From Methanomassiliicoccales archaeon LGM-RCC1 (GTDB lineage: Archaea; Thermoplasmatota; Thermoplasmata; Methanomassiliicoccales; Methanomethylophilaceae), in assembly GCA_030168575.1 (NCBI GenBank), contig CP115555.1:372001-436000 (forward strand): DNA of 64,000 nt, given 5' to 3'. Positions 15,152 through 60,381 of this stretch are shown here, in pieces; within the stretch, counting starts at the first letter, position 1, and each line of letters starts with the position of its first letter. Position numbers and translations under genes: made by a program. Under the pieces are notes generated by a model. That model was not told the DNA's origin and did no database searches. It saw only the letters and a list, made by a program, of their open reading frames with translations.

Positions 15152-15216
15152 TTATCTTTTCCACCACCGACTTCTGTCCTGTTCTTCATCCCATTCATAT
15201 GGGCGGAGCCATCGAT

Positions 15217-16404: not shown

Positions 16405-16498
16405 ATGTGCCGTAAGATGATGCCCGTATTTAGGAAAAACCCCTCTAAGGCGCCCGTTCGATAATTTATTATGTATAATCGGTTTAACGACGTCCGAT

Positions 16499-17645: not shown

Positions 17646-17659
17646 GAACTGGTACCTCA

Positions 17660-41050: not shown

Positions 41051-42529
41051 TCAGCGAATCCTCTTGAGGATGATGTATGCCGCCCCGATCGCTATCAGAG
41101 ACAACGTCACGATGACCGCTGCGACCAATAACGTATGGTCCGTACCCTCGTCCAGATCGCCGACGACCTTCAGGCCGAGGCCGGAGGACTCCCATGAACC
41201 GACCGCTCCCTCTTTGCAATGGACCGTCGCATCCACGTTCAGGAACGAGGTGTCATCGCCCTTCGGCGCCATGCCGAGGGCATCGATCCTCTGCAGCCCT
41301 GTGCAGTCCGCGAACGCGTAGCCCTCTATGAGCCTGACATCCGAAGGGACGGTCAGCGTCCTGAGCGACTCGCAGCCCCTGAAAGCCATCCTGCCGATGC
41401 CCTCGGCCATGTTCAGGTCGATGCTGCTCAGGGAGACGCAGTCGCGGAACGCCTCCCTGCCTATCACCTTCACCCTGTCCGGGATCTCGACGGTCTTCAA
41501 GGATTCGCATTGGTAGAACGACGACGCCCCTATCCCTTCGACTCCGTCGCCGAACTCCACATCCCTCAGCGATACGCAGTATCCGAACATGCGCGGGACC
41601 GCATCGACCCCCAGCCTCAGGGATTCCAGCGATTCGCATATGTAGAACGCCCCGTCGCCTACGAAACCTATTGTACTGGGGACGTCCAGGGCCTCTATGG
41701 AATGGCAGTCGCGGAACGCCTCGAAGCCTATGTACTTCAGATTCCCGGAGAATATCACGGATTCCAGATTGTGGCACGCCCTGAAGGCCTCGTCCTGGAT
41801 GTCTTTGACGGTCTCGGGTATGGGGGCGGCCTTCACATCGTTGTAGTAGAACGCCCTCTGTCCGATGGACAGCAGCCCTTCAGGCATCTCCACCCTGTCG
41901 ATGTCCGACCTCCTGTCGACCGTGCCGTCCTCCCTCATGGCCCCGGCGAAGGAATAATCGTCCACCTTCACAACCTTGACGCCGTCGACCTCTCCCCTGA
42001 TGGACAGCACTCCGTCGACTGGGATGCCTCCGGTCACGACGGCGCCGTCGGGAAGGATCGCGTAATCCACTCCGCCGACGGTGACGACGTCGATGGCCTC
42101 CGTACCGGTCCAACCGGTGGAACCGGGGACCGTATGGACCCTCACCCCTTCCGGGAAGGGATCGCCCATGACCGGACGGTCGCCCATGAAGTACACATCT
42201 GTCAGGAGCGGGCATCCTGCGAAGGCGCCGTTCTCTATCTCCTTGAGATTCTTCGGGATGACCGCCGATACGAACATGCACCCGTCGAATGCATGGGATG
42301 CGAGCGTGCGCACGTCGTATCCTTCCAGAACCGACGGCAGATGGAGTATGCTCTCGTCGGTCTCGGCCGACGTTATGACACAATAGTAGTCGGGATGACT
42401 GCTGCCATGCGTCTCGTACCCGTAGACGGTCCCGTCCGGGCATGTCTCGGATGCTTCTGTCCCGTCCATGAAGGATGGGCAGACCATGAGCAGCAGCGCC
42501 GCCAGGATTATCGCCGGATAGGCTCTCAT
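41051..42529 (-). CDS. BspA-like LRR surface protein with membrane anchor
   Basis: A 492-residue surface protein: signal peptide (1-22), a short N-terminal domain, BspA/LRR_5-type repeats over most of the length (units with I-G-x-x-A-F and C-x-S-L-E-S), and a C-terminal membrane helix followed by L-K-R-I-R. BspA-like proteins of gut microbes mediate adhesion. Its ATG overlaps the stop of the wHTH/DUF4443 gene (ATGA), so a dedicated regulator and a zinc-ribbon protein are co-transcribed with it. Confidence 0.85.
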   Translation of the reverse strand: MRAYPAIILAALLLMVCPSFMDGTEASETCPDGTVYGYETHGSSHPDYYCVITSAETDESILHLPSVLEGYDVRTLASHAFDGCMFVSAVIPKNLKEIENGAFAGCPLLTDVYFMGDRPVMGDPFPEGVRVHTVPGSTGWTGTEAIDVVTVGGVDYAILPDGAVVTGGIPVDGVLSIRGEVDGVKVVKVDDYSFAGAMREDGTVDRRSDIDRVEMPEGLLSIGQRAFYYNDVKAAPIPETVKDIQDEAFRACHNLESVIFSGNLKYIGFEAFRDCHSIEALDVPSTIGFVGDGAFYICESLESLRLGVDAVPRMFGYCVSLRDVEFGDGVEGIGASSFYQCESLKTVEIPDRVKVIGREAFRDCVSLSSIDLNMAEGIGRMAFRGCESLRTLTVPSDVRLIEGYAFADCTGLQRIDALGMAPKGDDTSFLNVDATVHCKEGAVGSWESSGLGLKVVGDLDEGTDHTLLVAAVIVTLSLIAIGAAYIILKRIR

Positions 42530-43107
42530 CTCATCGCCAGTCCGACCGCCGCGGCCACGACCCTGGCCTCGTCGGGATCCTTGGTGTCCACTATCACGAG
42601 AGCATCGCCGTCCTTGATGCCCGTGGCCCTTATCTTCTTGGCGAATTCAGGGTCCTTCTCGTCTATGTCCCATGACTCCGGGAATATGATCCTGCCGCCC
42701 CTCATGACGAATATGGCGGCCCCGTCCGCACCGTTCTTGATGGCCAGATCCCTCTGCGCCATGCCGTTGGTTATGCTGTCTGCGACACCTTCCACGATGA
42801 TCCCCTGCTGGTATCTGCTCACGGCATATTTCTCGTTGTAGATGTCCACGTACCTCAGCCGGAAGCTGTCGAAGCTCTGCTTGCCGAACGCGGTGATGTG
42901 TATCCCGTTCTGCTTGACCTCGACCCATTTCCATTCCTTGAGGACCTTCAGCATGCCCCTGATGCTGCCCTCTCCGAGACCGGTCTCCTCCACGAGGCCC
43001 TTCCTGCTTATGCGTCCCCTCCTCTGGATGATGTCGAGGACCAGGAATATGTGCGCGTCGGTGTACCTCGCCATGGGACCGTAGTTGTTCTCGTTGATCA
43101 GCTCCAT
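42526..43107 (-). CDS. wHTH regulator with DUF4443-like domain
   Basis: A 193-residue regulator starting at the ATG at 43107, with GGGGGTGAGG in front. An N-terminal winged HTH (I-S-R-K-G-L-V-E-E-T-G-L-G-E-G-S-I-R-G-M-L) is followed by a DUF4443-like C-terminal domain (F-R-L-R-Y-V-D, D-G-D-A-L-V-I). Overlaps of 10 bp with the upstream zinc-ribbon gene and 4 bp with the LRR gene show a three-gene operon, so it may control this surface protein. Confidence 0.75.
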   Translation of the reverse strand: MELINENNYGPMARYTDAHIFLVLDIIQRRGRISRKGLVEETGLGEGSIRGMLKVLKEWKWVEVKQNGIHITAFGKQSFDSFRLRYVDIYNEKYAVSRYQQGIIVEGVADSITNGMAQRDLAIKNGADGAAIFVMRGGRIIFPESWDIDEKDPEFAKKIRATGIKDGDALVIVDTKDPDEARVVAAAVGLAMR

Positions 43108-43832
43108 GTCCTCACCCCCATGGATTCGCACAGCCTCATGAACGGAAGGACCACGTCCATGACGGTGGACACCGAGACGGACATGTCCGATGCTATGTCG
43201 GGGACCGATTCCCCGCGGTCGAACTTCACGATGATGTCTGCCTGCACGGATGTCAGGCCGTGCTTCCTCAGACAGACCGACCTGAAGAGGTCCTCGTCGA
43301 TGCCCCACATCTCCTTCAGGATGCTCTCGTCGAGGGAGACCCTGTTGTTCCTGTGCTCGGTGACGTCCCTCAGCGTCTTCTTGTGGATCCTCCCGACCTT
43401 GTATTGCTCGGGTTTCAGGACCCCGCATTTCGGGCAGGTCACCGGGACGCCCTGCTTGAAGGTGTCCTCCCAGGTTGACCCGCATCTGCAGCATTCGAGG
43501 GGCAGGAGCTCGTTCTTCCACCTCCTGCTCTTGCATGAGGGGCACATCATGGGGGATTCGCTGGATGTGATCCATTCGTGACCGCATCTGTAGCACATGA
43601 CCTTCCTGACGTTGGGACGGTCCCACAGCGAGGACCTGCACATCGGGCAGACGTTCGGCCTTTCGCTTTCGCTCTCGGCGTTCCATATGTAACCGCACAG
43701 CTTGCACTCGTTTACGCACCATCTGTCGTCGGCATCGTGAACCGTGCGGTTGCGCTCGACTATGCGCTCGAGACGCAGCATCCCGATCTGGTAATCCTTC
43801 TCATCTATCAACCTAGCACCCCTCGAGGCCAA
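43098..43832 (-). CDS. three-zinc-ribbon protein with C-terminal HTH
   Basis: A 244-residue protein. Three C-x2-C...C-P-x-C zinc ribbons (C-K-L-C-G-Y-I-W, C-Y-R-C-G-H-E-W, C-C-R-C-G-S-T-W) fill residues 38-145. A C-terminal HTH of sigma-70 region 4/LuxR type follows (L-T-S-V-Q-A-D-I-I-V-K-F...V-P-D-I-A-S-D-M-S-V). The start is uncertain: TTG at 43832 or ATG at 43781. It heads the operon with DUF4443 and LRR genes and is a smaller paralogue of the seven-ribbon protein next door. Likely a transcription regulator. Confidence 0.75.
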   Translation of the reverse strand: MASRGARLIDEKDYQIGMLRLERIVERNRTVHDADDRWCVNECKLCGYIWNAESESERPNVCPMCRSSLWDRPNVRKVMCYRCGHEWITSSESPMMCPSCKSRRWKNELLPLECCRCGSTWEDTFKQGVPVTCPKCGVLKPEQYKVGRIHKKTLRDVTEHRNNRVSLDESILKEMWGIDEDLFRSVCLRKHGLTSVQADIIVKFDRGESVPDIASDMSVSVSTVMDVVLPFMRLCESMGVRTWS

Positions 43833-43881
43833 TGGATGATAGTACCAATATGCAGACCATCCAAATAGGTTATGTGTCCAT

Positions 43882-43951
43882 CATGTAACTAAGTGTAGTT
43901 TTTACGATACAATATTCTACATTACAGGGAAAACATGTAACTTCATGTAGT
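43882..43951. promoter_or_regulatory. two 18-bp operator-like repeats
   Basis: CATGTAACT-N4-GTAGT occurs at 43882-43899 and at 43934-43951, the second running into the 3' end of the seven-ribbon gene. They lie upstream of the three-ribbon gene and may bind its product or that of its paralogue. Confidence 0.5.
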
Positions 43952-45196
43952 GTCCCTTTGCTCATCCTCATAGCATGAGATCGGGTCCTCGGTGTAGACG
44001 GAGTCGTTGACGACTATGCCGCCCCTGCTGAAGGCGTTCTGGATCCTGGTGAACTCGGACCTTATGTCCCTCAGGGACCTGCCCAGCCTCAATGCTATGG
44101 TCTCCGGGCTCATCCCTGTGAAGTGCAGGGCCAGTATTTCAGCCTGGCCCTCGTTCAGGCCAAGGCGATCCATGAAGTACGGGATGTTCTCCCTGTACGA
44201 ATCCCTGCGGGACATCATATCCTCCGTCAGGGAATCCCAGAATCTGCCGTACCTCTCGTTGCCTGCGTGCCTGACGATGGTCGCGAACTCCAATCCCTTC
44301 TCGTCCAGGAGCTCGTCCATGTACCTGCATGATATCGGATAGGACCCTTCCCACAGGTACACGCACCCTATCCCGTCCTTGAAGAGATAGACCAGCCTCA
44401 GCCCGTCCTTCTCCCAGAGCACGATCAGCTTCTCCGATTCGTCGTCCGAGAACACCAGGCCGCATGCGGGGCATATCTTCTTGGCATCTGCGGAGGCGAC
44501 CCACTCAGCGCCGCAGAATCCGCACCTGAACTCGCTGTGGTCCTCCCCCTTGCATATGGGGCAGAGGCTGTTCCTCTTGAACTGGATGAACATCCTGCCG
44601 CATCTGAAGCACTCCGACTTGGGCGGCAGCTCATCCCATTTCATCGACCTGCACGAGGGACATGTCTTCACCGCGTTCGGCTCCACGCCTTCCGTGAGTA
44701 TCCATTTGTGGCCGCATCTGAAGCACTTCAGCTTGAACGTGTCCTTATCCCAGGACCTCGACCTGCACTTGGGACACTGCTCCGGATGCTCCATCTTGCT
44801 CTTCCAGACGTATCCGCACTTGCGGCATGTGAATCTCGGGATCTTCGGTTCGTCCCAGTTGCGGGACTTGCACCTGGGGCATTTGACAGGCTTCTCCGAG
44901 CCGCGCGACACCCAGCGGTGGCCGCACTGGTTGCAGGAGAACCCCCTGCTGACCCCGATGTCCGATACGGACGACCCGCATCCGGGACAGATGTCGCTGG
45001 AATGCTTCGGGGCCCATTCCGCGCCGCAGTTGAAGCACTTGTGCTCCTTTGACGGCACGTCGAAGCGCCGGGAACGGCAGGACGGGCACGAGACCGGGCG
45101 CTCGTCCGAGCGGGAGATCCACTGATGGCCGCATCTGAAGCAGCATACCTTCCTGCCCTTCCAAGAATCGGTCTCCCTCGCGAATTCGTTCGACAT
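43943..45196 (-). CDS. seven-zinc-ribbon protein with C-terminal HTH
   Basis: A 417-residue protein with seven consecutive zinc ribbons (residues about 18-245), each C-x2-C-G-x-x-W...C-P-x-C, spaced about 32 residues. A beta region then leads to a C-terminal HTH (L-N-E-G-Q-A-E-I-L-A-L-H...I-A-L-R-L-G-R-S-L-R-D-I). The ATG at 45196 lies about 27 nt after a TATATC box, so the mRNA is probably leaderless. A perfect inverted repeat overlaps that box. It follows the corrinoid operon and may regulate it or the surface genes. Confidence 0.78.
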   Translation of the reverse strand: MSNEFARETDSWKGRKVCCFRCGHQWISRSDERPVSCPSCRSRRFDVPSKEHKCFNCGAEWAPKHSSDICPGCGSSVSDIGVSRGFSCNQCGHRWVSRGSEKPVKCPRCKSRNWDEPKIPRFTCRKCGYVWKSKMEHPEQCPKCRSRSWDKDTFKLKCFRCGHKWILTEGVEPNAVKTCPSCRSMKWDELPPKSECFRCGRMFIQFKRNSLCPICKGEDHSEFRCGFCGAEWVASADAKKICPACGLVFSDDESEKLIVLWEKDGLRLVYLFKDGIGCVYLWEGSYPISCRYMDELLDEKGLEFATIVRHAGNERYGRFWDSLTEDMMSRRDSYRENIPYFMDRLGLNEGQAEILALHFTGMSPETIALRLGRSLRDIRSEFTRIQNAFSRGGIVVNDSVYTEDPISCYEDEQRDTT

Positions 45197-45243: not shown

Positions 45244-46044
45244 TCACAGCGACCCTTCTATGTACCTCTTCGGCAGGACGTAGATCTCCCCGTCGGCATC
45301 GAGGCCGACCCTGGCCTCCACCTCGTACACGTCCTTGATGAGCTGCTCGGTTATGATCTCCTTGGGGTCCCCCACGGCCACGATCTCCCCCTGCTTCATT
45401 ATCACGCACATGTCGCAGTATCTCGCCATCAGGGAGATGTCGTGCTCGGCGACCATGACCGTCATCTCCGAGCGGGCCATCTTCTGGAGGTACTCCATGA
45501 CCTGCAGCTTGTACTTCATGTCCAGATGCGAGGTGGGCTCGTCGACGAGCATGAGCTTGGGCTCCTGGACGTACGCCTTGGCGATGAGCGCGCGCTGCCT
45601 CTCTCCCGACGAGCACAGCGCCACCTGCTTCCTCCTGAGATGGTCTATGCCGAAGGTCCTCAGGGCCTCCCTGGTGATCCTCTCGTCCTCGGGATTCTCC
45701 CACCATATCCTGTCGACGAACGGATACCTTCCGAGCATGACCATGTCCATGACGCTTATGCCGAAGGTCTGTCCGGCTTCCGCGGGGACGTTGGCGACCA
45801 GTTTGGCGACCTCCGCGGCCTTCATCGTGGAGACGTCCTTCCCGGCGACCTCGATGGTGCCCTCGGTCTGCGGGTGGATCCTGGAGATGCACTTCATCAT
45901 CGTGGACTTGCCGCACCCATTGGGGCCTATGAGGCCTATGAGCAAGCCCTTGCCGAACTCCAGGTCAATCCCCTTGAGGGCCCTGAAGCCGTCGAAGTCC
46001 TTGACCAGACCCCTTATCCTGAGCACCGGGGGATCATCCGTCAT
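45244..46044 (-). CDS. btuD: corrinoid-type ABC transporter ATPase (BtuD-like)
   Basis: A 266-residue ABC ATPase of the iron-siderophore/B12 class: Walker A G-P-N-G-C-G-K-S-T, signature C-S-S-G-E-R-Q-R (variant of L-S-G-G-Q), Walker B L-M-L-V-D-E-P-T-S-H-L-D and switch His in V-A-E-H-D. It powers the BtuC-like permease, whose gene overlaps it by 11 bp. The last gene of the operon starting at 54165. The corrinoid substrate is inferred from the DUF4430 partners and cbiZ; heme or siderophores are the alternatives. Confidence 0.88.
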   Translation of the reverse strand: MTDDPPVLRIRGLVKDFDGFRALKGIDLEFGKGLLIGLIGPNGCGKSTMMKCISRIHPQTEGTIEVAGKDVSTMKAAEVAKLVANVPAEAGQTFGISVMDMVMLGRYPFVDRIWWENPEDERITREALRTFGIDHLRRKQVALCSSGERQRALIAKAYVQEPKLMLVDEPTSHLDMKYKLQVMEYLQKMARSEMTVMVAEHDISLMARYCDMCVIMKQGEIVAVGDPKEIITEQLIKDVYEVEARVGLDADGEIYVLPKRYIEGSL

Positions 46045-47167
46045 AGTTGCGCCCCCTCTTCATGAGCATGTAGGCGAACACGGGCGTACCGATCATCGCC
46101 GTTATCGCACCCACAGGCAGCTCCGCCGGGGACATGACCGTCCTGGCTACCAGGTCGGCGAACAGCATGAGCATCGCGCCTATGACTATCGAGGCGGGCA
46201 TGATCAGACGATGGTCGCTTCCCAGCGCCATACGGCAGGCATGCGGCACCACCAATCCTACGAATCCGATGATCCCGACGAATGCCACGCACAGCGACGT
46301 CAGCACGGACGCCACTATCATGGTCAGCCTCTTGAACCTCTTGACATTCAATCCCAGCTGGGCGGCCTGGTCCTCCCCCATGGAATAGAGGTTGAACTCC
46401 CTCGCCCACACCATCGCTATCACGGATATGCCGATGACAGGGATGAAGACTATCCAAGCGTTCTCCCATGTGATGTTCGCGAAGCTGCCGTAGAGCCACC
46501 ACATGACGTCGGTCAGGTTGTCCTTGCCCATGGACATGAATATCGTCTGCACGGACGAGAATGCGAATCCCACTATGGTTCCGGCGAGGATGTAGTTGAC
46601 CGATGACCCTCCGCTGCCTTCGGCGACGGTCATGGTGATGGCGAATGCTATGATGCCTCCGATGATGGCGACGACCGGGATGATGTACAGGGTGTTGTCC
46701 GCCAGGAAGGAGATGCTGAACCCCAGGGCGGTGGCAGCCATGGCCAGGCAGCCGGCACCGGATGACACTCCCGTGATGTACGGGTCGACCAGAGGGTTCC
46801 TGATGATGGCCTGGTACATGCAACCGGCAATCGCCAGGCCCGCGCCGACGGCGATGGACGCTATCGTCCTGGGAAGCCTTGCGTTGAATATGTACAGCTC
46901 GATCATGTCGAGGTTCCTGTCGCCTTCGACCGCCTTCCCGATGGAGGAGAACAGCGCCGCGATGGCGTCGCTCAGCGGTATGATACCGCCCGACGAGATC
47001 GAGATCGAAATCAGGAACGCCACCACCGACATGAACAGGCCGAACAGGACTATCAGCCTGAAACGCCTCTTCTTCAGTTCGATCTCCGATTCATCCGGAT
47101 TCTCCAGATCGGATTTCATTCCCCTGTATCCCTTCTTAAGCTGAGAGAAAAGCCCATCCTTAGACAT
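46034..47167 (-). CDS. btuC: corrinoid-type ABC permease (BtuC-like)
   Basis: A 377-residue FecCD/BtuC-family permease with a cytoplasmic N-terminal extension of about 45 charged residues and nine to ten membrane helices. Family motifs include R-L-P-R-T-I-A-S-I-A-V-G-A-G-L-A-I-A-G, Y-I-T-G-V-S-S-G-A and G-L-V-V-P-H-A-C-R near the C-terminus. It forms the channel for BtuD and the BtuF-like binding protein. Starts inside the end of the propeller gene (8 bp overlap). Confidence 0.88.
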   Translation of the reverse strand: MSKDGLFSQLKKGYRGMKSDLENPDESEIELKKRRFRLIVLFGLFMSVVAFLISISISSGGIIPLSDAIAALFSSIGKAVEGDRNLDMIELYIFNARLPRTIASIAVGAGLAIAGCMYQAIIRNPLVDPYITGVSSGAGCLAMAATALGFSISFLADNTLYIIPVVAIIGGIIAFAITMTVAEGSGGSSVNYILAGTIVGFAFSSVQTIFMSMGKDNLTDVMWWLYGSFANITWENAWIVFIPVIGISVIAMVWAREFNLYSMGEDQAAQLGLNVKRFKRLTMIVASVLTSLCVAFVGIIGFVGLVVPHACRMALGSDHRLIMPASIVIGAMLMLFADLVARTVMSPAELPVGAITAMIGTPVFAYMLMKRGRNYDG

Positions 47168-49022
47168 TCATCGTCCTCCTGTAAAGTATCGCGAACGATA
47201 CCGTGGATAATGCGACCACTATCGCGGCCAGGTACCATGACCAATGCGCGAATCCGACCGTCTCGAGGGCCTGCACCCTCTCCTCGTCGGTACCCTCCCC
47301 CTCGATATCGGAGAGGCAGTATACGGCTCCGAAGTCGTTCCCCGTGTATATCTTGCCGTCGACCACCGTTGGCTGGACCATGGAGTACGAATCCTCCGAA
47401 TAAGGCGAGAGCAGCACCCTCCAGATCTCGCTGCCGTCGCTGGAGTCCCACGCGGTCAGGGCGCCTCCGGTGGGCCAGAACGCTCCCGCGGAGTAATCCG
47501 TTCCGTAGAGGACCCCGTCGGCGTCCAATGTCAGAGCGCCTTTGATCATCTGATAGTCCTGCGATTTCCATACGACCTTCCCGTCCCAGTCGAACTTGTA
47601 GACCGCCGTGGTGGCCTCGACCTCTCCGCCGTCGGCGGTGGCGAAGCTCTGAGATCCTGCCGACAGGGGCGACACATAGGTGAAGAACCCGCTGTCCGTC
47701 ACCACGGGCGACGTGAACAGCGCATCCAGCTTCCAATCCTTTCCGTCCGCCTGAAGCCTCTCACCGGTCCCCGGATCCAACGCCAGAAGGTATCCCTCCA
47801 GGGAGAACAGCGCCCCATCGGTGCATCCGATCAGCAGATGCGACCCGTCCGGGGAGACGGAGACGGATGCCGCCGAACCCGGAGTCCCGGGAGCGGCCCT
47901 GTTGTCGTCCCTCATGTCTATGACCCTCTTCACCCAGATCTCCCTGCCGGTGTCGGCGTCCAGCGCGTACACGTATCCCTCATAGCTTCCTGTGAACAGC
48001 ATCCTCTTCCCATCGACCTTGGCGATGGTCGGGGCATGGAAGTAGAAGCAGCCTCTCGTCCCGATATAGTCGCCGGACTGGTCCCTCTCGCACGGAGGCG
48101 CGTACTCCCAGTCGACGGACATCTTGCCCTCGGGGGACAGCTTCAGGGACATCACCGTTCCCGAGGATGTCCCGAAGTATATCCTTCCGGAATCGTACAC
48201 GGGGGTCGTGCCCCCGGTCTGGAAGACCCTTCCCTCCCAGATGACGTCGCCGTCATCGTCGGTGGGCGGGTTGATATCCACCGTCATCCTGTCCCTGATC
48301 TCCCCTGTGTACCTGTCGAAGCAGATCACATCCCCGCATGTGAAGGTCACCACCAGATAATCTCCCACTATCACAGGGGTGGTGACCTCGTATCCGGCGC
48401 CTTTGATGCCGTGATACTTCCACACGATCCCTCCTGTGAACCTGTCCAGTGCGTACACCCAGGCATCCTCGTCCCCTCCGGTCGCCCCATAGGCCCCTCC
48501 CGTCGTGTGGTAGAGCATGTCCCCTGCGACAACGAGTCCGGAGTCGACGTATCCCGTGGTGTACGTGTTGTACCATTCCACGGGCATCTTCGGTTCCTTC
48601 TGTCCGTGGGACACGGAGACGTTGGATGCCGATGAGGATCCGCTCAGCGTCGTCCATGACGTCGGGTGTTCCGGGGTGGACACCGGTGCGAAGCCGTCCG
48701 GGTAGAATCCGAAAGCTACCGTACCCGAACACGGTGCGTTCAAGTCCGTTCCCCTGTCCGTCCATCCGTCCTCCCATTGGAAGAGATGCCATCCGCAGTC
48801 CGATGCGGATCTCGTCCTGATCTCGTTTATGACTCCGGTATCCTCCACGGAGCTTTCCAGGACGCTCCCGAAGGTCGCGCCTCCGCCGTTCGCGTACCAT
48901 TGGTAGCTGCCGTTCCCGAAATCCACGAGGACCTGGTCCTGCTGATCGGCATCGATCGATGCCACCGAGAACACCGACAGGACCAATACGGCGATCGCCA
49001 GCAAAGGTGCGTAGCGTCTCAT
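47160..49022 (-). CDS. DUF4430-like/PQQ-propeller membrane protein
   Basis: A 620-residue protein starting at the ATG at 49022, which overlaps the btuF-like stop (ATGA). Signal peptide (1-22); a DUF4430-like domain (about 25-125: V-L-V-D-F-G-N-G-S-Y-Q-W-Y, W-H-L-F-Q-W-E-D-G-W); a PQQ-type beta-propeller (about 150-570, repeated Y-A-L-D-x-x-T-G motifs); and a C-terminal membrane helix. It sits between the binding protein and permease genes, so it is probably an outer-face receptor that captures ligand for the transporter. Confidence 0.8.
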   Translation of the reverse strand: MRRYAPLLAIAVLVLSVFSVASIDADQQDQVLVDFGNGSYQWYANGGGATFGSVLESSVEDTGVINEIRTRSASDCGWHLFQWEDGWTDRGTDLNAPCSGTVAFGFYPDGFAPVSTPEHPTSWTTLSGSSSASNVSVSHGQKEPKMPVEWYNTYTTGYVDSGLVVAGDMLYHTTGGAYGATGGDEDAWVYALDRFTGGIVWKYHGIKGAGYEVTTPVIVGDYLVVTFTCGDVICFDRYTGEIRDRMTVDINPPTDDDGDVIWEGRVFQTGGTTPVYDSGRIYFGTSSGTVMSLKLSPEGKMSVDWEYAPPCERDQSGDYIGTRGCFYFHAPTIAKVDGKRMLFTGSYEGYVYALDADTGREIWVKRVIDMRDDNRAAPGTPGSAASVSVSPDGSHLLIGCTDGALFSLEGYLLALDPGTGERLQADGKDWKLDALFTSPVVTDSGFFTYVSPLSAGSQSFATADGGEVEATTAVYKFDWDGKVVWKSQDYQMIKGALTLDADGVLYGTDYSAGAFWPTGGALTAWDSSDGSEIWRVLLSPYSEDSYSMVQPTVVDGKIYTGNDFGAVYCLSDIEGEGTDEERVQALETVGFAHWSWYLAAIVVALSTVSFAILYRRTMNV

Positions 49023-50404
49023 GCCATCCCCCTCTGATATGTAAGGTAATCCCTGTAATCGTCCCCCAGGTACTTCGGTATCGTATCCAGCGGGTCCCTG
49101 AACTCGAACTGGTCCGGATGCAGCGCCTTGCCCAGGAGCTCGGCCGCCTGGCAGAGCCTCGGCCCCGGTCTGGACAGCAGGTCCGCCGCCTGCCCTGTGA
49201 ACAGGTATATGTTCCCGTTCCTGTAGGCCGGGGTCTCCCTCCATACGGGATCTATCCTCTCCAGGAACTCCTCGTACTCCTCCTCGGAGGTTATCTCGCT
49301 GCCGTGGAGGATTATCATGACCTGGGGCTGCTTGGCATGGATCTGCTCCTTGGAGACCATGAACCATGAAGATGACTGCGAATCGAACACGTTGCTGCCC
49401 GAGACCTTCGCGATCGTGTCGGAAGCGAACGTGTTGCTGCCTGATGTCCACGGGGACGGGTCCGCCGACAGGGCGATGAAAGTCCTCACCGCCGCCTGAT
49501 AGCCTATGACGCCCGAGACCGCGTCGATGGTCCCCCTGAATGTCTGGATGACGCTGTTGGCGTTCTCGCTCAATCCCATCGCAGAAGCCACCAGCCAGAT
49601 GTTGTCGTACAGCACCTCTATGTTGGTGACGTCGTAAGTCACGACGCAGTCTATCCCCGACTTCCTCAGCTTGTCTGCCATCGCCACGTGCTCACCCGTG
49701 CCGCCTTCGCAGAATACCACGTCGGGACCGAGCTTCACGATCCATTCGTAATTCGGATCGGAATACCCGCCGACGTTCCTGATCTTCCCTTCGGCCTTGT
49801 TCTCTACGACCCCCTCCGGATAGTTGCTGTAGAGGTCGGTTCCCACGATGTAATCCAATCCCCCGATGGAGCATATGGTCTCCGTGACCGAGGGCGCCAG
49901 CGATACGACCTTGAGCTTCTCGCCGGTCTTCAGGGAGTATCCGGAGTCAGCGTAGCTGTAGTATGTGAACCCGGACTGGTCGGTACCCGGTATGACGTCG
50001 TCCGGACCGGACGCCCTAGCCCATGCCGCTATGTCCCCCGGACCGAGGATGACGGCCGAGGGGTCGTCGCACGGGATCCACTGGCCTTCGGACAGCATGT
50101 ACATCCCCCATTTCTTCCCCTGGAGGTTTGACTGCTCGTTTATCGAATGCACTATGGTGTGCCTGTCATCCTGGTAGACCAGCGGGTAGCCCTTCAGACC
50201 GCACGCCGTCTCCAGCGCCTCGTATCCGTCCATGCCGTCCCCGAAATCCAGGTTCACCCAGACCGTATCCCAGTACCCGAAGTCGATGACCACTCCGCTC
50301 CTGCCCTCGGTCTCCGCATGGGTGAGGCCCATGGCCGGGGTCAGGACGATCACCGCGACAGCGACGACAGCGGTTATGGCCAGCTTCTTACCGGTGGAGT
50401 TCAT
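49019..50404 (-). CDS. btuF: BtuF-like binding protein fused to a DUF4430-like domain
   Basis: A 461-residue secreted protein: signal peptide (1-28); DUF4430-like domain (about 37-130: V-V-I-D-F-G-Y-W-D-T-V-W-V-N, G-K-K-W-G-M-Y-M); then a type III periplasmic-binding domain (about 165-450) with L-A-P-S-V-T-E-T-I-C and D-V-V-F-C-E-G. Such domains bind B12, heme or siderophores. The fusion joins an intrinsic-factor-like domain to an ABC binding protein in one chain, strong support for corrinoid uptake. Genes on both sides touch or overlap it. Confidence 0.87.
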   Translation of the reverse strand: MNSTGKKLAITAVVAVAVIVLTPAMGLTHAETEGRSGVVIDFGYWDTVWVNLDFGDGMDGYEALETACGLKGYPLVYQDDRHTIVHSINEQSNLQGKKWGMYMLSEGQWIPCDDPSAVILGPGDIAAWARASGPDDVIPGTDQSGFTYYSYADSGYSLKTGEKLKVVSLAPSVTETICSIGGLDYIVGTDLYSNYPEGVVENKAEGKIRNVGGYSDPNYEWIVKLGPDVVFCEGGTGEHVAMADKLRKSGIDCVVTYDVTNIEVLYDNIWLVASAMGLSENANSVIQTFRGTIDAVSGVIGYQAAVRTFIALSADPSPWTSGSNTFASDTIAKVSGSNVFDSQSSSWFMVSKEQIHAKQPQVMIILHGSEITSEEEYEEFLERIDPVWRETPAYRNGNIYLFTGQAADLLSRPGPRLCQAAELLGKALHPDQFEFRDPLDTIPKYLGDDYRDYLTYQRGMA

Positions 50405-50405
50405 C

Positions 50406-51455
50406 TCATAGACCTTCGGGTATGGTCGACGGCGTAGGCATGACCATCTCGACTCCGTCGTCCGCCTGCTTCTCAGATGTGGTCTGCAGGACCAGGGCGA
50501 AGTAATGGTACCTGCCCATGTCGTACTTGCCCAATGTGAGGTTGTTGTACGTCCACTGCCTGGTGTCGTCCAAAGACTTGGCGTTGGGGTTGTAGGAGAA
50601 CTGCGACCAGTACGTCCAGTCCCCGTTCTTGAGCTGCGTGTCCGCCCATCCGAAGAATCCGGTGAACCATCCGAACATGTCCTTGCTCATGAGATGGCTG
50701 TGGACCGACTGCCCATCCAACCTGTAATCGAGCACTCCCTTGTCCTCCACCACCTCGACCTCCGCGTCGGGGAACAGCGTGTCCCTCACCGCGTTGACCA
50801 AGGCCTCGTTCACGTTCGTACCGGAGCCTTTGATCCAGAACCCTTCCTCTATGTCCGCCGTGCTGAGACCTGCCTTCTCGAACCATCCCATCATGATGTC
50901 GAACCTCTCAGACGTCGTCAGCCTCTTCCCTTCCGACTTGTCGTCGGGCTTGGAGTTGGGGTCCTTGGCGACCTTCTCGATCTCCGAGAGGTCGGGGACC
51001 TGTATGAAGAAGTACGCCTCGCTGCTTATGCTGAACGCGGGCTGGACGTATCCGGTCCTTCCGTTCTCGACCACCTTCTCTGCATACTCCAGGACCAGCG
51101 TGGAACCGTCCCTCAGGTCGGCATCCTTGGCAGGAACCCAGCCCTTCAGGCTCTGCCATCTGAACACGATCCAGGACCTGTCGTCCGAGTTCTCCTTGCC
51201 CTTGTAGCTCTGGACGTTGCCGTTGCTCTTCAGCACTATGCTGTCCCCCAAGGTGCTCTGCAGCACCTCCTTGACGCTGGACCCCTCTGCGGAGTACTCC
51301 CTGTACGTCCCATCTCCCTGGGAGACCTCCAGGCTTATGCTGTACGTCCCATCGTCGACATCACTGCTGCCGCCGGACATCATGACGAAAACGGCTCCCG
51401 CCCCTGCGGCCGCGATGACCGCTATCAGTATGATAACCAATGTGTTCTTGTTCAT
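50406..51455 (-). CDS. membrane-anchored protein with two DUF4430-like domains
   Basis: A 349-residue protein with an N-terminal anchor (I-I-L-I-A-V-I-A-A-A-G-A-G-A-V-F) and then two DUF4430-like units. The first has D-R-S-W-I-V-F-R-W-Q-S and D-G-S-T-L-V-L-E-Y. The second has F-F-G-W-A-D-T-Q-L-K-N-G-D-W-T-Y-W and L-G-K-Y-D-M-G-R-Y. It lies 1 bp before the btuF-like gene and 4 bp after the propeller gene, so it is firmly in the operon. A corrinoid binder on the cell surface is the likely role. Confidence 0.8.
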   Translation of the reverse strand: MNKNTLVIILIAVIAAAGAGAVFVMMSGGSSDVDDGTYSISLEVSQGDGTYREYSAEGSSVKEVLQSTLGDSIVLKSNGNVQSYKGKENSDDRSWIVFRWQSLKGWVPAKDADLRDGSTLVLEYAEKVVENGRTGYVQPAFSISSEAYFFIQVPDLSEIEKVAKDPNSKPDDKSEGKRLTTSERFDIMMGWFEKAGLSTADIEEGFWIKGSGTNVNEALVNAVRDTLFPDAEVEVVEDKGVLDYRLDGQSVHSHLMSKDMFGWFTGFFGWADTQLKNGDWTYWSQFSYNPNAKSLDDTRQWTYNNLTLGKYDMGRYHYFALVLQTTSEKQADDGVEMVMPTPSTIPEGL

Positions 51456-51459
51456 CCTA

Positions 51460-54165
51460 TCACCACGACCCTTCGCTCATCACGCCCTTCTGGACGCCGA
51501 AGGTCATCTGCACTCCGCCCGAGAATGTGTTGCCGTAGGCCTCGAACGTCAGATATCCGTCCTTGACCTTGCCGGTGGTCTCGATCACCTTGTCCAGGTA
51601 GTAGAACACCTTGACCTCCTTCCCATCGTAGCCCTGGTTCGCCTTCACCTTCACGGTGAGCGGCAGCTCCTTGCTTACCCCGTCCCCCTTCAGGGTGACC
51701 AGGATGCAGTTGGAGTCGCTACCCGTCCTGTCCTTGCACTCGGAATTGATCGCCTTGTAGGTGCTTCCGTTGGTGTTAGAGGCGTTGGCGGACAATGTGG
51801 AGGATGCAGGGAACTTGCCGGTCACCGACAGCCCCTTGCCGTTGTCCACGGTGGCCGAGGCGTTCTCGGACCATTTCGCCTTCAGTGTTATCCCCTGCTC
51901 GAACTTGTAAACGGTCGCCGAGGTGTATTCCTTCCCGTCGTAGAACCATCCCATGAAGGTATGGCCGGCCTTCACCGATACCGGCAGGTCGCCGAGGGGC
52001 CTGTCATAAACCCCGTAGTAGACCTCGGACACGAAGGAGCCTCCGTCCGGATCGAAGTCCAGATAGCTCACCTTTAGCCATCTGGCCGTGAGTGATGCGT
52101 CCTTCGAGACCTTGGTCTTGTTTGGAATGTACTGGGTGGAACCGTCGAACCATCCTCCGAACTGATATCCCTCCTTGGAGGGATCGTGGATGTACGGCAT
52201 CAGATCCCCTTTGGCCAGGGTAATGATGCTGGATCCGCCCCCGTTCTGGGGATCCATGGTGATCTTCACTGCGTCAGCGTACACCGGCGTCAGGACCGTG
52301 TCCTTCGCGACAGGCGTGCTGAACGACGTCCAGTCAGCAGAACCTTCCTTCCATCCCGTGAGCACCTTGCCCGCGGGCACGGCCACATCGGGGAGGTCGA
52401 CGATGGCTCCCTTCGGGACCTTCATCACCAGATCGCCCGAGACGGTTCTCAGCGTCAGGGTGACGCACAACCTGTCCAGGTCCTGGTAGTTGGAGACCTT
52501 CGCCCTATCCTGGTCGGTAAGGCCGGAGTATCTTGCGACGATCCTCTGGTAATCCCTGTAGTTGACGTTGCCGTCATCGTACATGTCCAGGAACCTGTCT
52601 ATCGATGAGGATACGTCATCCGGTCCGTACCTGTTCTCCTTGCCGAAGCAGAACAGGGTGGTGTCGTTCCTCAGGAGAACGTATCCGTCCTCCGATATCA
52701 CGAAGCTCTGGTAGCAGAACTGTGCCGGATCGGGCCTGAGCTTGAACTCTATCGACGTGCCCCTGTCCTTGCTGTCCTTGATGACGAAGATGTCCGCATA
52801 GCCGTTGATGCTGTCAGCCGCCTCCCCCTCGTTGACATGGCCGTACTCCATCACGTAGATGTACACGGCATAGCCGTTGTCCTTCGTGGAATAGGCGGTG
52901 GAGATCGCCATGGTGCCCTTGGTGCAGACATCCTTCAGGTAGCCGCGGGCCTTCATGTCCCCGTCCTTGCCGATATCGATTATCCAAAGGGGCTCGTTGC
53001 TTCCCAGGGTCTTCCCTCCGCCTCCGATATATATTGTGTCGTTCCATATCACCGGGATGGACTGGGTGCCTCCCCATACCGCCCCCTTGTAATTCTTCTG
53101 CCAGAAGCTGTCCTCGGACTCCCAGTACCTCTCGGAGGACCTGTCGAACCCTTCGGGGGTGACCTTGTACGAGCGAATCGCCAGCTTCTCGGACGTGAAC
53201 TCGTTGGGCTCCCAGTCGTTGCGGTCGGCGACCCTGTTGAGCGGGATGTACACCCTTCCCTCGTAGGCGGTGGCGCCCGACGAGGAGTACTCCCTGTCGA
53301 AGTGGATGGAATCGATCACCCTTCCGGTGTCCGCATCCATGAAGAACGCCGTGGCGCCCATGTCGTTGAATCCCCTCTTGACTAGCACTATGTAGTCGTC
53401 AAAGAAGGCGGGGGTGGCGTTGTACCATCCGTCGCACTCCATCAGCCACAGTGGCTCGACCTCCTCGTCCGCCCTCGTCCTGTCCTTGTCTTCGGTGGAG
53501 AAGCACGCGTAATCCCCGTCGTATGTTCCGAAGAACACCTTGCCGTCGTAGTAGGTGACCGTTCCCTGCGTCTCCCCTCCATCGACCGGGACGGATACGA
53601 AGAGCTGCTGCATGGTCTCCGCATCGAAAGCGTAGAGAATGGAGCAGTAGCCTGTAGACGTGACCGCGAACACCTTGCCGTCGCCGTAGGTTATGGCCAT
53701 GTTGTACACGGTCTTCGAGGGACAGCTCGCTTTGGCGATGGTTTTCCCCGTGGCGATGTCCACGCAATAGAACGCGGATTCCTGTCCTTTGTAGTAATAG
53801 GCCTTGTCTCCCACGCACAGCGGCGAGCTGGGCGTCTTCCAATTGGATGCGGAGGCGTCTATCTCCGAGAATACCTTCCAGAGCATCTTCATGTCGCTCT
53901 GATTCAGGGGCGTCTTGGAATCGGTGATGCCGAAGCTCCCGACATCCCCTCCGACGTAAGACCACTGAGACGGGAGTGTCGGCTTTATCTCCCTGGGCTC
54001 AAGAATCTCGCCGCTGTACGGCTCCTCCGGATTCGATGGCGACGGCTTTGGATCCTCATCGTCGATTACCTCGTTCCCGCTTCCGCCGCTCATCATGAAA
54101 TACACTCCGGCACCTGCGACGGCGATCGCGGCTATCAGCACCACTACTATGACTGAAGCCTTCAT
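51460..54165 (-). CDS. propeller/InlB-repeat surface protein, first operon gene
   Basis: A 901-residue surface protein starting at the ATG at 54165, which has GAGAGGG in front. N-terminal anchor (V-V-V-L-I-A-A-I-A-V-A-G-A-G); a PQQ-type propeller (about 60-490); a short dockerin-like helical unit (D-M-Y-D-D-G-N-V-N-Y); three InlB-like repeats (about 570-790, G-Y-Q-F-G-G-W-F and G-H-T-F-M-G-W-F); and a C-terminal beta domain. It heads the six-gene corrinoid operon. Ligand capture or cell-surface display is inferred. Confidence 0.8.
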   Translation of the reverse strand: MKASVIVVVLIAAIAVAGAGVYFMMSGGSGNEVIDDEDPKPSPSNPEEPYSGEILEPREIKPTLPSQWSYVGGDVGSFGITDSKTPLNQSDMKMLWKVFSEIDASASNWKTPSSPLCVGDKAYYYKGQESAFYCVDIATGKTIAKASCPSKTVYNMAITYGDGKVFAVTSTGYCSILYAFDAETMQQLFVSVPVDGGETQGTVTYYDGKVFFGTYDGDYACFSTEDKDRTRADEEVEPLWLMECDGWYNATPAFFDDYIVLVKRGFNDMGATAFFMDADTGRVIDSIHFDREYSSSGATAYEGRVYIPLNRVADRNDWEPNEFTSEKLAIRSYKVTPEGFDRSSERYWESEDSFWQKNYKGAVWGGTQSIPVIWNDTIYIGGGGKTLGSNEPLWIIDIGKDGDMKARGYLKDVCTKGTMAISTAYSTKDNGYAVYIYVMEYGHVNEGEAADSINGYADIFVIKDSKDRGTSIEFKLRPDPAQFCYQSFVISEDGYVLLRNDTTLFCFGKENRYGPDDVSSSIDRFLDMYDDGNVNYRDYQRIVARYSGLTDQDRAKVSNYQDLDRLCVTLTLRTVSGDLVMKVPKGAIVDLPDVAVPAGKVLTGWKEGSADWTSFSTPVAKDTVLTPVYADAVKITMDPQNGGGSSIITLAKGDLMPYIHDPSKEGYQFGGWFDGSTQYIPNKTKVSKDASLTARWLKVSYLDFDPDGGSFVSEVYYGVYDRPLGDLPVSVKAGHTFMGWFYDGKEYTSATVYKFEQGITLKAKWSENASATVDNGKGLSVTGKFPASSTLSANASNTNGSTYKAINSECKDRTGSDSNCILVTLKGDGVSKELPLTVKVKANQGYDGKEVKVFYYLDKVIETTGKVKDGYLTFEAYGNTFSGGVQMTFGVQKGVMSEGSW

Positions 54166-56112: not shown

Positions 56113-56430
56113 TCAGTCTTTGCTCAGATCCATCCATGAGTATGCGACCTTCAGTATCCTGATGAGGTTGCGATCCTCTAGGATCACATAGAACATGATG
56201 AAGTTCTTACGGAATTGGAACTGTCTTTTAGGATAACCGTCGATCCTTGCGGAATTGGGTCTGACCATGTGGGAATACGGATTGTCCCTGATATTTTCCA
56301 TGGATGCTTCCACATCGTCCAGGAACGACAGGGCCGCTGATACGTTCCCGAGTTCGATAGCGATGTACCTGGCGATGGAATCCACCTGCTGCTTTGCGTC
56401 AGGGGATAGTTCAATGGAAAATTGGGTCAT
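56113..56430 (-). CDS. RelE/ParE-type toxin
   Basis: A 105-residue ParE/RelE-superfamily protein: F-S-I-E-L-S-P-D-A-K-Q-Q-V-D-S-I-A-R-Y-I at the start, D-N-P-Y-S-H-M-V in the middle and R-Q-F-Q-F-R-K-N-F-I-M-F-Y-V-I...I-L-K-V-A-Y-S near the end. It may block gyrase or cut mRNA; the sequence does not decide. Its start overlaps the antitoxin stop by 20 bp. A stability module of the integrated element. Confidence 0.85.
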   Translation of the reverse strand: MTQFSIELSPDAKQQVDSIARYIAIELGNVSAALSFLDDVEASMENIRDNPYSHMVRPNSARIDGYPKRQFQFRKNFIMFYVILEDRNLIRILKVAYSWMDLSKD

Positions 56431-56668
56431 CCCTGAGCTCCTTCAGGAATTCGAAAGCATCCACGTTGCCTCCTTCCTCCTCGGAACGTCTGAACGCTTC
56501 CGCCAGCTCGATGTCCAAAAGGATCTCCTTTATCCTGTCGTAGGTCTCTATATTCATCAGTACTCTTGAACCGAAGCCGTTCTTGGTGATCAACACAGGC
56601 TCTTTTTCCGACATCTCGAGGATCTTGGAGGTGTTCCTGAGTTCTGTGATTGGGACTATGGCAGTCAT
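56411..56668 (-). CDS. Phd/YefM-type antitoxin
   Basis: An 85-residue Phd/YefM-family antitoxin: A-I-V-P-I-T-E-L-R-N-T-S-K-I-L, P-V-L-I-T-K-N-G-F-G-S-R-V-L-M, and an acidic C-terminal helix. I chose the ATG at 56668; a GTG two codons upstream is possible. The palindrome GACATAATTATGTC (56697-56710) about 30 bp upstream is the likely autoregulatory operator. Confidence 0.85.
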   Translation of the reverse strand: MTAIVPITELRNTSKILEMSEKEPVLITKNGFGSRVLMNIETYDRIKEILLDIELAEAFRRSEEEGGNVDAFEFLKELRDDPIFH

Positions 56669-56696
56669 GATCACTTATATATCGTTTGAATATTTA

Positions 56697-56953: not shown

Positions 56954-58348
56954 TCAGGCTATCTTCCTTGCAGCGGCATGGCGCTGATACTCCGCCATCG
57001 GATCCTTGGGCCTGGAGGATGCTATGTTATCCATGACCTCCCTGTCGGATACTATCATGGCCACATCCGGCGTCAGATCCCCCATCGTGGATCCATCGAG
57101 GCGGAGACTGTCCTTCAGGTCCGGAAGGACCTCCTTCACGTAAGGGGCATCGCGTGCGAATGCCCTGACCTTGTTCTCGAAGATGTGAGATGCAGCTTCG
57201 CCGCATTGGTCGCATATGCCCGAGTAGACGTTCAGTGTACCTCCGCATTGCGTGCAGGTCCTAGTGACCCTGTAGGATTCCCTGTCGACGGTCTTGATCA
57301 TGTTGTTCGCCAACACTCCGAAGTAATTGTCACTGATCTGCGAGAACTGCGGTTCCATGGCATATCCCAACCAGTCGAAGTTACCTATCTCCCCTACCAT
57401 CCTGCCCTTGCCGAGTACCTCGTTGGCCTGATCCTCCTCGGTGTACCTGAACATCCTCTTCTTCGATCCATTCTGTCCAGTATCGTCGTTGGAGTTCAGG
57501 CCAGGGAGATAGTAGTTCAGGATCTTCGAAGTGTAATCGTCACTCGTGGGATTCCTCTCGTACAGCCCGATGCCTTCGTGTGTGGTAAGATAGGCGAAGG
57601 TGAGCCGTATGGATTGCAGCTCATCCTTGGAATGCACCTTCTTGATCACCCATCCGGGATGGGTATCCAGGAACGCCTTCGTGTCCAGGAATCCTATGAG
57701 CACTCCATGGAAATGGGGGCCGTTCTCCCAGGTACAGTCCTTCATCCTCCAGGGATGGAAGACGAGTCTACCTCCCAGACATCCCACTTTGCAGAGATCC
57801 TGCTGGAGCCTCCTCCTGAACCTGTTGAACCACACATGAGATTGCATGATCCATCTCATTTGGTCCTGGGGAGGGGAGATTATCCAATGCCCCACGTTCC
57901 CGGATTCGATGCCCTGCTTCTCGCACAGCAGACGGTATTCCACGTATCTCATCTCGATGCGTGTTCCCGTTCTAAGACAGGAATCGTTCAGGCATACGGG
58001 GCATTTAGGAGACCAGCAATGGTTGTTCTTCCCTCTGAGATAATGGAATCTGGAGTTTGAGCAGGAGACGAAGAGACGGCCCTTCTCTCCCGTGGATCCC
58101 TTGATCCTCACCGGACCGCAGCGTAGCCTTTTGGGACGCTGGAGGTCGTGACCGGGAGCCACCCATGTCAGCGGTTCGGGGATATCGCAGATGGGGACAT
58201 CATCCGGATTGTAGTATGCATCCTCGAACGGGAACATCTTCACATACTGTATGACGGGATGCTCGTTCCTCTCTGCGATCCTCAGCTCCAGCTCGGCCGA
58301 ATCCATCTCCTCGGTGTATCCCAGATCCAACAGTTCCTGGAGATCCAT
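56954..58348 (-). CDS. rep: HUH rolling-circle replication initiator
   Basis: A 464-residue Rep. The HUH motif is P-H-F-H-G-V-L-I-G (His212/His214). A candidate nucleophile Tyr is Y253 in F-A-Y-L-T-T-H-E-G. A first motif-like strand is G-H-W-I-I-S-P-P (about 153-160). Zinc ribbons flank it: C-W-S-P-K-C-P-V-C near 111-119 and C-T-Q-C...C-D-Q-C near 365-382. HUH Reps nick the plasmid or viral origin. I chose the ATG at 58348 with GGAAGGAG 10 nt upstream; a longer reading overlaps the upstream gene. It marks a rolling-circle ancestry for the element. Confidence 0.82.
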   Translation of the reverse strand: MDLQELLDLGYTEEMDSAELELRIAERNEHPVIQYVKMFPFEDAYYNPDDVPICDIPEPLTWVAPGHDLQRPKRLRCGPVRIKGSTGEKGRLFVSCSNSRFHYLRGKNNHCWSPKCPVCLNDSCLRTGTRIEMRYVEYRLLCEKQGIESGNVGHWIISPPQDQMRWIMQSHVWFNRFRRRLQQDLCKVGCLGGRLVFHPWRMKDCTWENGPHFHGVLIGFLDTKAFLDTHPGWVIKKVHSKDELQSIRLTFAYLTTHEGIGLYERNPTSDDYTSKILNYYLPGLNSNDDTGQNGSKKRMFRYTEEDQANEVLGKGRMVGEIGNFDWLGYAMEPQFSQISDNYFGVLANNMIKTVDRESYRVTRTCTQCGGTLNVYSGICDQCGEAASHIFENKVRAFARDAPYVKEVLPDLKDSLRLDGSTMGDLTPDVAMIVSDREVMDNIASSRPKDPMAEYQRHAAARKIA

Positions 58349-58349
58349 G

Positions 58350-58703
58350 TCAGGGCTCCTTCCCGAAATCGGCAAGACGTTTGCTTGGCCAGTCGGTGGG
58401 ACCGAACACCTCCTCGAATTGCTTCCTGTCCGAGTCGTCGAGACGACCCTGACGGTCGAGTCCCAAGGCCGTCTCCTTCTCTTCGACCAGTAATCCATAG
58501 TACTCTTCGAACTCGTCTTCGTCGTAAAGGTCCCTGAGGGCATCCAGGCCGTAGAGTTCGATGATCACGCTGTCGCGATGTTCGATGTTACCGTTGTCGA
58601 AGACCAGAGGGGTGTAATCCCCGCAGGGTCCGCAGAGCTTGCCTTTGCTGTCCGGACATAGATAGCAAGCGCAGGTTAGGCAGCACTTCTTCTTAAGAAT
58701 CAT
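58350..58703 (-). CDS. Cys-rich protein linked to rep
   Basis: A 117-residue protein. The N-terminal 30 residues carry six Cys (K-C-C-L-T-C-A-C-Y-L-C-P...L-C-G-P-C), a zinc ribbon or cluster. The rest is acidic and helical (D-E-D-E-F-E-E-Y-Y-G). It starts inside the end of the previous gene (11 bp) and ends 1 bp before rep. A truncated homologue remains in the second element at 61511. A DNA-binding helper of replication is a guess. Confidence 0.7.
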   Translation of the reverse strand: MILKKKCCLTCACYLCPDSKGKLCGPCGDYTPLVFDNGNIEHRDSVIIELYGLDALRDLYDEDEFEEYYGLLVEEKETALGLDRQGRLDDSDRKQFEEVFGPTDWPSKRLADFGKEP

Positions 58704-59797: not shown

Positions 59798-59873
59798 CGC
59801 CAGAAATTGGCCCCCTCATAGAAAAAATTACGAAGATCTGGCTATTGTCGAAGTGGACTCGGTAGGGCCCACC
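59798..59873. repeat. middle att copy with arm sites
   Basis: CGGTAGGGCCCACC (59860-59873) repeats the tRNA-Met 3' end. CGCCAGAAATT begins 62 bp and GATCTGGCT 25 bp before it, exactly as at the right copy. It would be the junction between the two tandem elements. Confidence 0.75.
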
Positions 59874-59880
59874 TTTTTTT

Positions 59881-59897
59881 TTATGTCAATGACATAA
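59881..59897. repeat. palindrome beside the middle att copy
   Basis: TTATGTCA-A-TGACATAA, perfect 8-bp arms, 8 bp from the att repeat. GTCATATGAC lies in the same place beside the right copy (62551-62560). Together they may be recombinase or host-factor sites. The 170 bp that follow hold a GGGCTC/GAGCCC hairpin (59978-60003) and no gene. Confidence 0.55.
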
Positions 59898-60046
59898 TTT
59901 AAAATGGGCTCAACTAAGATGCTGTCCGTGTTTTTTCGGATGGAAAGTGACGGTTTTCGGCCGAGTTGGACTGTTGCGGGCTCGATTTCTGGAATCTGAG
60001 CCCAACAACAGTTGTCGCCCGGCCGGTGTGCCCGCACTACTATGGA

Positions 60047-60349
60047 TCAGGGCATGCTCTCAGACCTGCCCCTCATGACGTCATAGATGTTGTCTAGGAT
60101 GGATTCCTCGCGGTAGTTCGCGTAGTACTTCTGCGTGGTCTTGATCGAGTCGTGCCCCATTGCATAGGATACGCTCTCGATGGGTACCCCGCGGTCGAAC
60201 ATCCTCTGCCCGTAGGCGCGGCGGGCGTCCTTGAGAGCGAGCCTCTCGCCGATGATCTTCTCGACGCTCCTCTTCCTCTTGTTGATGGTCTCCATCGTGA
60301 CGAATCCCGACTTGACCATCAGAGGAGGGAACAGCGCCAGGGAAGGGTA
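60047..60349 (-). pseudogene. 3' remnant of a second tyrosine integrase
   Basis: About 100 codons homologous to the C-terminus of the integrase at 16698: A-L-F-P-P, E-K-I-I-G-E-R-L-A-L, D-A-R-R-A-Y-G-Q-R-M-F-D, Y-A-M-G-H-D-S-I-K-T-T-Q-K-Y-Y. The homology begins just after an in-frame stop near 60350, so the N-terminal two thirds are lost. The orientation and distance to the middle att copy match those of the intact integrase. Confidence 0.85.
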
Positions 60350-60381
60350 TTAATTTCTATGCTGAAGCCCATACCGTGCCC

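Follow-up and report, generated by a model that had tools for sequence, protein, structure and literature searches.

The window analyzed here is a 64,000-nucleotide stretch of DNA (G000:C1:372001-436000) from the 1.66 Mb, single-contig genome of strain LGM-RCC1, an archaeon of the order Methanomassiliicoccales. On its minus strand (54165-45244) lies an operon of six open reading frames (ORFs), which encode a BtuCDF-type importer and three surface proteins. We interpret this operon as an accessory corrinoid (cobamide) importer carried by an integrated mobile element, and we put the probability of this interpretation at roughly three in four. The six genes are as follows:

51460-54165, minus strand: P0001, 901 aa, cell-surface protein with an N-terminal transmembrane (TM) anchor, a weak PQQ-like propeller and InlB/List_Bact repeats
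50406-51455, minus strand: P0002, 349 aa, anchored protein; domain 1 is DUF4430/transcobalamin-beta-like, domain 2 is possibly related but unproven
49019-50404, minus strand: P0003, 461 aa, transcobalamin-beta-like N-domain (residues ~30-155) fused to a BtuF-type binding protein (PF01497, residues 166-403)
47160-49022, minus strand: P0004, 620 aa, signal/anchor, DUF4430-like domain (residues ~26-115), PQQ/BamB-type beta-propeller and C-terminal TM segment
46034-47167, minus strand: P0005, 377 aa, BtuC-type FecCD permease
45244-46044, minus strand: P0006, 266 aa, BtuD-type ATPase

An original prediction, made from the sequence of the window, had described these genes as a tightly packed operon. 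All six ORFs were present, with successive spacings of +4, +1, -4, -8, and -11 bases. This packing is not due to chance because orthologous operons with the same layout recur in other genomes. In Pfam searches, P0005 matched FecCD (E 4e-87), P0006 matched ABC_tran (E 5e-27), and residues 166-403 of P0003 matched Peripla_BP_2 (E 3e-29). A FecCD permease, an ABC ATPase, and a PF01497 binding protein therefore occur together in one operon, as is typical of type II (BtuCDF-type) importers, and the predicted BtuC- and BtuD-like genes were confirmed. P0004 matched the PQQ_2 propeller (2.5e-18). P0001, which had been predicted to be a propeller/InlB protein, matched InlB-type repeats (1.2e-14) and, weakly, a propeller. 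No Pfam family was matched by P0002.

The Trp/Tyr-rich domains of the operon proteins are DUF4430/transcobalamin beta-domains, except for the second domain of P0002, which is uncertain. The original prediction had named PF01497 and PF14478 as the families to search for. PF01497 was found in P0003 as described above, whereas no protein of the genome matched PF14478, and the window proteins scored below the Pfam gathering score. Yet PF14478 exceeded the Pfam cut-off in orthologues, namely in the binding-protein N-domain in G055 and, for G061 and G067, in the surface gene that lies upstream. A profile of the P0003 N-domain (60 sequences) was then compared with the DUF4430 members of the order, and 100 column shuffles, with gap columns removed, served as hhalign decoys. 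The P0003 N-domain matched DUF4430 with a probability of 92 and a score of 41.4 (decoy maximum, 18.8), and the P0004 N-domain with a probability of 82 and a score of 33.6 (decoy maximum, 18.6). The proposed fusion of a BtuF-like protein with a DUF4430-like domain (P0003) and the proposed DUF4430-propeller protein (P0004) were thus both recovered. Domain 1 of P0002 matched the P0003 and P0004 domains with probabilities of 92 and 96 (decoys ≤15) and, as judged from these profiles, is homologous to both. P0002 had been expected to carry two DUF4430-like domains; this held for domain 1, but the comparison of domain 2 with DUF4430 was not significant. The DUF4430 assignment was likewise rejected as not significant for the N-domains of two secreted proteins encoded elsewhere in the window (33273-34259 and 36856-37851) and for the C-terminal stretch of a 1892-aa surface protein (25990-31668).

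Searching the PDB sequences with the N-domain profile gave no match at E values up to 1. The AlphaFold2 model of the P0003 N-domain had a predicted local distance difference test score (pLDDT) of 84.7. When this model was used as a Foldseek query, the first 17 PDB matches were exclusively transcobalamin, haptocorrin, or the DUF4430-type protein 3u7z of R. gnavus, and intrinsic factor followed at rank 20. The matches (E ~1e-3, probability 1.0, TM ~0.5) indicate a beta-domain fold, so the structural similarity to DUF4430 on which the original prediction depended was found. For the P0002 model (pLDDT 79.9, 8 sequences), transcobalamin was the first PDB match, over one domain of ~99 residues. The match of the modeled folds to the transcobalamin family is consistent rather than overwhelming because all Foldseek E values were ~1e-3; the agreement among the top ranks carries more weight. 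The alpha-toroid domain of intrinsic factor is absent, as none of the operon proteins gave a Pfam match to it.

The propeller protein is physically tied to the permease family by gene fusions. In the same genome, a second (core) copy of the system (L031) comprises a small secreted protein, a binding protein that also bears this N-domain, a chain of 992 aa in which propeller and FecCD permease are joined, and an ATPase. From the signal through the DUF4430-like domain, propeller, and TM segment to BtuC, the fused protein corresponds end to end to P0004 joined to P0005. Among the loci examined, 50 BtuC ORFs extend by more than 450 residues ahead of the BtuC match; P0004 matched 41 of these 50, counts that are not independent, as some loci are the same genome taken twice. 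The BtuC of the window (P0005) nests inside the clade of core-operon permeases with a support of 100/100. A propeller-fused BtuC in G016 (L038, 6002-8839) branches as the sister of the window clade, in which the genes are separate; this suggests that an ancestral fusion underwent fission. Shorter core operons in G054 and G055 (L087 and L088) encode a BtuC without propeller fusion and a binding protein that retains the N-domain, with CobD-like and CbiB genes coming after them. A further FecCD transporter of the strain is encoded near its core operon (L031, 16797-18991).

These fusions bear on an alternative that we consider possible but doubtful, namely that the BtuCDF core imports corrinoid, while P0001, P0002, and the propellers serve chiefly as adhesins or sheath proteins and take no part in capture. 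The InlB repeats of P0001 and the many leucine-rich repeat (LRR), immunoglobulin (Ig), and InlB surface proteins encoded on the element fit this explanation, and a 2024 survey reads such neighbors as adhesin-like proteins (PMC10804542). In contrast, many genomes encode a P0004-type propeller in one chain with BtuC, P0003 itself bears the transcobalamin-like domain, and P0002 is retained beside P0003, in the same order, in orthologous operons. It is highly improbable that the operon encodes an envelope chaperone or assembly complex, with a BamB-like propeller on an ABC transporter that does not import. The weak sequence similarity of P0004 to BamB-type propellers is compatible with such a complex, whereas FecCD permeases with PF01497 proteins are importers and the system is linked to corrinoid salvage. 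Moreover, BamB acts in the outer membrane, which is absent from this archaeon.

Corrinoid as the predicted ligand is well supported by genomic context. In relatives, the homologous core operon is followed by genes for an aminotransferase (CobD-like), CbiB, and CbiZ, and in some also by genes that are CobS- and CobY-like by sequence. The fused operon is followed by the CobD-like aminotransferase, CbiB, and CbiZ in G056, and by CbiB and CbiZ in G072. Of 58 cases with CbiB and a core-type binding protein on one contig, 43 had the two no more than 10 kb apart; the core-type class includes forms without the N-domain and DUF4430-/propeller-fused forms (G056 and G072). An orthologue of the window-type operon in G057 lies ~3 kb from cbi genes. 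The original prediction had inferred corrinoid as the ligand, and this inference gains support from the propeller-BtuC fusion, the CobD-CbiB-CbiZ linkage, the nesting of BtuC, and a CbiZ gene on the same element.

The binding protein itself also bears on the ligand. Against NCBIfam models, P0003 scored 74 bits with BtuF, 51 bits with IsdE, and at most 19 bits with siderophore models. The cavity of BtuF is lined with the aromatic residues Y50, W66, W85, F162, F168, and W196 (PMC5269720). Y50, W66, F168, and W196 align with Y192, Y214, W319, and W347 of P0003 (four of six aromatic), while the other two are not kept, as W85 falls in a gap and F162 corresponds to L312. Y214 and W347 are invariant among 22 homologues, and the nearly invariant E220 and E353 align with Glu residues of BtuF. 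In BtuF, replacing W66 with tyrosine preserved cobalamin binding but lowered that of cobinamide 3- to 4-fold (PMC5269720); Y214, at the W66 position, is accordingly predicted to favor complete cobamides over cobinamide.

Several observations weigh against a corrinoid importer. Some of them would suit a different chelate: the best PDB match of P0003, 4m7o, was deposited as 'iron-binding', the core binding protein of the same genome scores slightly higher with heme-binding proteins than with BtuF, and Burroughs 2007 suggested that the archaeal members might scavenge another, distinct metabolite (PMC1796856). The FecCD/PF01497 family also spans many ligands, and the F420-0 ATPase model came narrowly first for P0006. 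Nevertheless, an importer for another metal chelate (heme, siderophore, F420 precursor, or cobalt complex), with the transcobalamin-like domains as generic ligand-binding or adhesive beta-grasp modules, appears unlikely. The heme and siderophore models scored below BtuF for P0003, the homologous operon stands beside CobD-CbiB-CbiZ across the order, the element carries CbiZ, and the structural matches of the domain are corrinoid carriers. The remaining adverse points concern scores, linkage, and need. P0003 and P0005 missed the equivalog cut-offs of the E. coli-type NCBIfam models (BtuF, 74 of 234 bits; BtuC, 218 of 334 bits), and no cobalamin riboswitch was detected at the Rfam gathering score. 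None of the seven window-type operons on CbiB-bearing contigs was within 40 kb of CbiB, so the ligand is read from homology, from the G057 case, and from CbiZ on the element. Finally, the genome encodes CbiC, CbiD, and a corrin methylase gene. The strain thus probably makes corrinoids itself and uptake need not be essential; an obligate need for imported corrinoid was therefore rejected, and the system is regarded as accessory.

The mobile element that carries the operon has the following features:

16575-59873, no strand: integrated element of 43.3 kb; empty site in the same-species genome G077
16499-16575, plus strand: tRNA-Met, the integration target; attachment repeat CGGTAGGGCCCACC at 16561-16574
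59860-59873, plus strand: second copy of the 14-bp direct repeat CGGTAGGGCCCACC, right end of the element
16698-17660, minus strand: tyrosine integrase of the element (PF00589, E 2.5e-6; phrog_1, E 1.7e-12)
21991-22977, minus strand: CbiZ, adenosylcobinamide amidohydrolase (corrinoid salvage; E 6e-45)
23084-25993, minus strand: 969-aa Ig-like surface protein with a domain of the P0002-domain-2 type, adjoining CbiZ
25990-31668, minus strand: surface protein of 1892 aa that carries sequence repeats and LRRs of the BspA type; C-terminal propeller-like stretch recognized by eye only
33273-34259, minus strand: 328-aa secreted protein with a C-terminal domain of the P0002-domain-2 type
36856-37851, minus strand: 331-aa secreted paralogue of the preceding protein

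In G077, which lacks the operon, window positions 12301-16574 and 59857-60400 are contiguous (99%-100% identity) and meet at the 3' end of tRNA-Met. This empty site, the tRNA-Met junction, the CGGTAGGGCCCACC repeats, and the integrase identify the 43.3 kb as an integrated element. The integrase at one end, the tRNA target, the terminal direct repeats, and the empty site in a relative are together characteristic of tRNA-integrative elements, and the element is predicted to be mobile. In G037, two operons of this kind are located in two tandem elements (~38 and 40 kb; G037:C1:1610367-1687550, L209-L213), each ending with a tyrosine recombinase and bounded by three copies of ATCAGGGAGTGGGGACCAT, a tRNA-like repeat of 19 bp. 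In a second relative, G081, the operon and the surface genes are conserved in the same order. It is an evenly balanced proposition that the whole constitutes a mobile cobamide-acquisition island, whose main cargo is a capture machine of transcobalamin-like domains and propellers with its importer and CbiZ, and which is exchanged among gut methanogens.

The element may be an integrated plasmid. A 529-aa protein (56954-58543) contains a GPHFHGV stretch that resembles the HUH motif of rolling-circle replication proteins, with no Pfam or PHROG match. Also inside the element, a small overlapping gene pair (56113-56674) is ParE/RelE toxin- and Phd-type antitoxin-like by sequence. Just outside it, a 90-aa ORF (60047-60319) resembles the C-terminal part of a tyrosine integrase; the same stretch is present in G077, and this region is likely an integration hot spot. 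The stretch downstream of the operon (41051-45196) encodes a pair of zinc-ribbon proteins, a winged-helix protein of the DUF4443 family, and an LRR protein of the BspA type, in an order that is conserved in G081 (L037); these are possible regulators or members of the module.

We propose that P0005 and P0006 would form the ATP-driven channel. P0003 would be a membrane-tethered binding protein, with its BtuF half docking on BtuC and its transcobalamin-beta-like half supplying a second corrinoid-binding face. P0004 would be an external propeller seated on the permease, with its own transcobalamin-beta-like domain; it is regarded as a standing partner of the permease, since in the core operon its homologue and BtuC form a single chain. 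P0001 and P0002 would act as anchored outer capture proteins. We hypothesize that these capture domains form a surface relay, in which corrinoid caught outside would be handed to P0003 and pumped inward. CbiZ on the element could strip foreign lower ligands, allowing the host to rebuild its own cobamide.

Overall, the interpretation given by the original prediction was supported, and the mobile element, the CbiZ link, the propeller-BtuC fusion, and the probable corrinoid synthesis by the host are added to it. In a literature search of incomplete coverage, we found no report of the BtuF-DUF4430 fusion, the propeller-BtuC fusion, or the mobile island, all of which appear to be unreported. Methyl-reducing gut methanogens rely on corrinoid methyltransferases, and the acquisition of cobamides therefore bears on gut methane and on the competition for B12. 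If our interpretation is true, an archaeal importer on mobile DNA would be wired to a domain that grips B12 in carriers of human blood and gut. If the proposed island exists, it would amount to a prokaryotic equivalent of intrinsic factor coupled without intermediary to an ABC importer, and gut methanogens would swap the capacity to take and remodel the B12-like cofactors of other microbes. The scavenging of such cofactors may thus spread between gut archaea. To our knowledge, the ligands of prokaryotic transcobalamin-like domains have been predicted but little tested; with permease relatives in fused form and CbiZ as a neighbor, the operon offers a compact test case.

Parts of the system have already been predicted. 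Burroughs 2007 described a prokaryotic transcobalamin clade, including propeller fusions and CbiQ/CbiO operons, with surface proteins predicted to be B12 scavengers, but questioned whether B12 is the ligand in archaea, since the archaea concerned are often able to synthesize it (PMC1796856). The 2024 survey reported that BtuC clades are expanded in the order and that strain LGM-RCC1 has a BtuFCD locus neighboring adhesin-like proteins, and its authors proposed a specialized capture mechanism for exogenous B12; when its text was searched, none of the terms DUF4430, transcobalamin, beta-propeller, and fusion turned up (PMC10804542).

Like BtuG/BtuB of Bacteroides (PMC6143338), the window system has a cell-surface beta-propeller next to a B12 importer. 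In contrast to BtuG, the propeller of the window is of the PQQ/BamB type, there is no outer membrane, and corrinoid binding by the propeller is putative. A BtuG-like identity by sequence was ruled out for the P0004 propeller, which gave no match to BtuG and matched only BamB/YfgL. With BtuCDF of E. coli, the window system shares the FecCD permease, the ATPase, and the PF01497 binding protein, in which two acidic residues align with Glu residues of BtuF; of the six cavity aromatics, four positions are aromatic in both. It differs from BtuCDF in the additional transcobalamin-like domain and N-terminal hydrophobic anchor of the binding protein, in the propeller fused or adjacent to the permease, in the three extra surface proteins, and in scores below the equivalog cut-offs. 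The SLBB/DUF4430-CbiQ/CbiO operons (PMC1796856) also encode surface DUF4430 and DUF4430-propeller proteins, whereas the present system is paired with a BtuCDF importer, and direct fusions link it to the binding protein (P0003) and, in the core operon, to the permease. An operon that looks like the SLBB/DUF4430 type occurs in a different family of the order (G005; L103, 5542-10121), where a DUF4430-propeller protein and a small DUF4430-like protein are encoded with CbiQ/CbiO-like energy-coupling factor (ECF) components, and BtuCDF is absent from their place. The beta-domain of transcobalamin, intrinsic factor, and haptocorrin (DUF4430, SLBB transcobalamin clade), which binds cobalamin and cobinamide when isolated from the human protein (PMC5599065), resembles the window domains in predicted fold and profile. 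Unlike these carriers, the window domains have no alpha-toroid, share ~10%-24% identity with them in structural alignments, and are fused to an ABC binding protein and a propeller.

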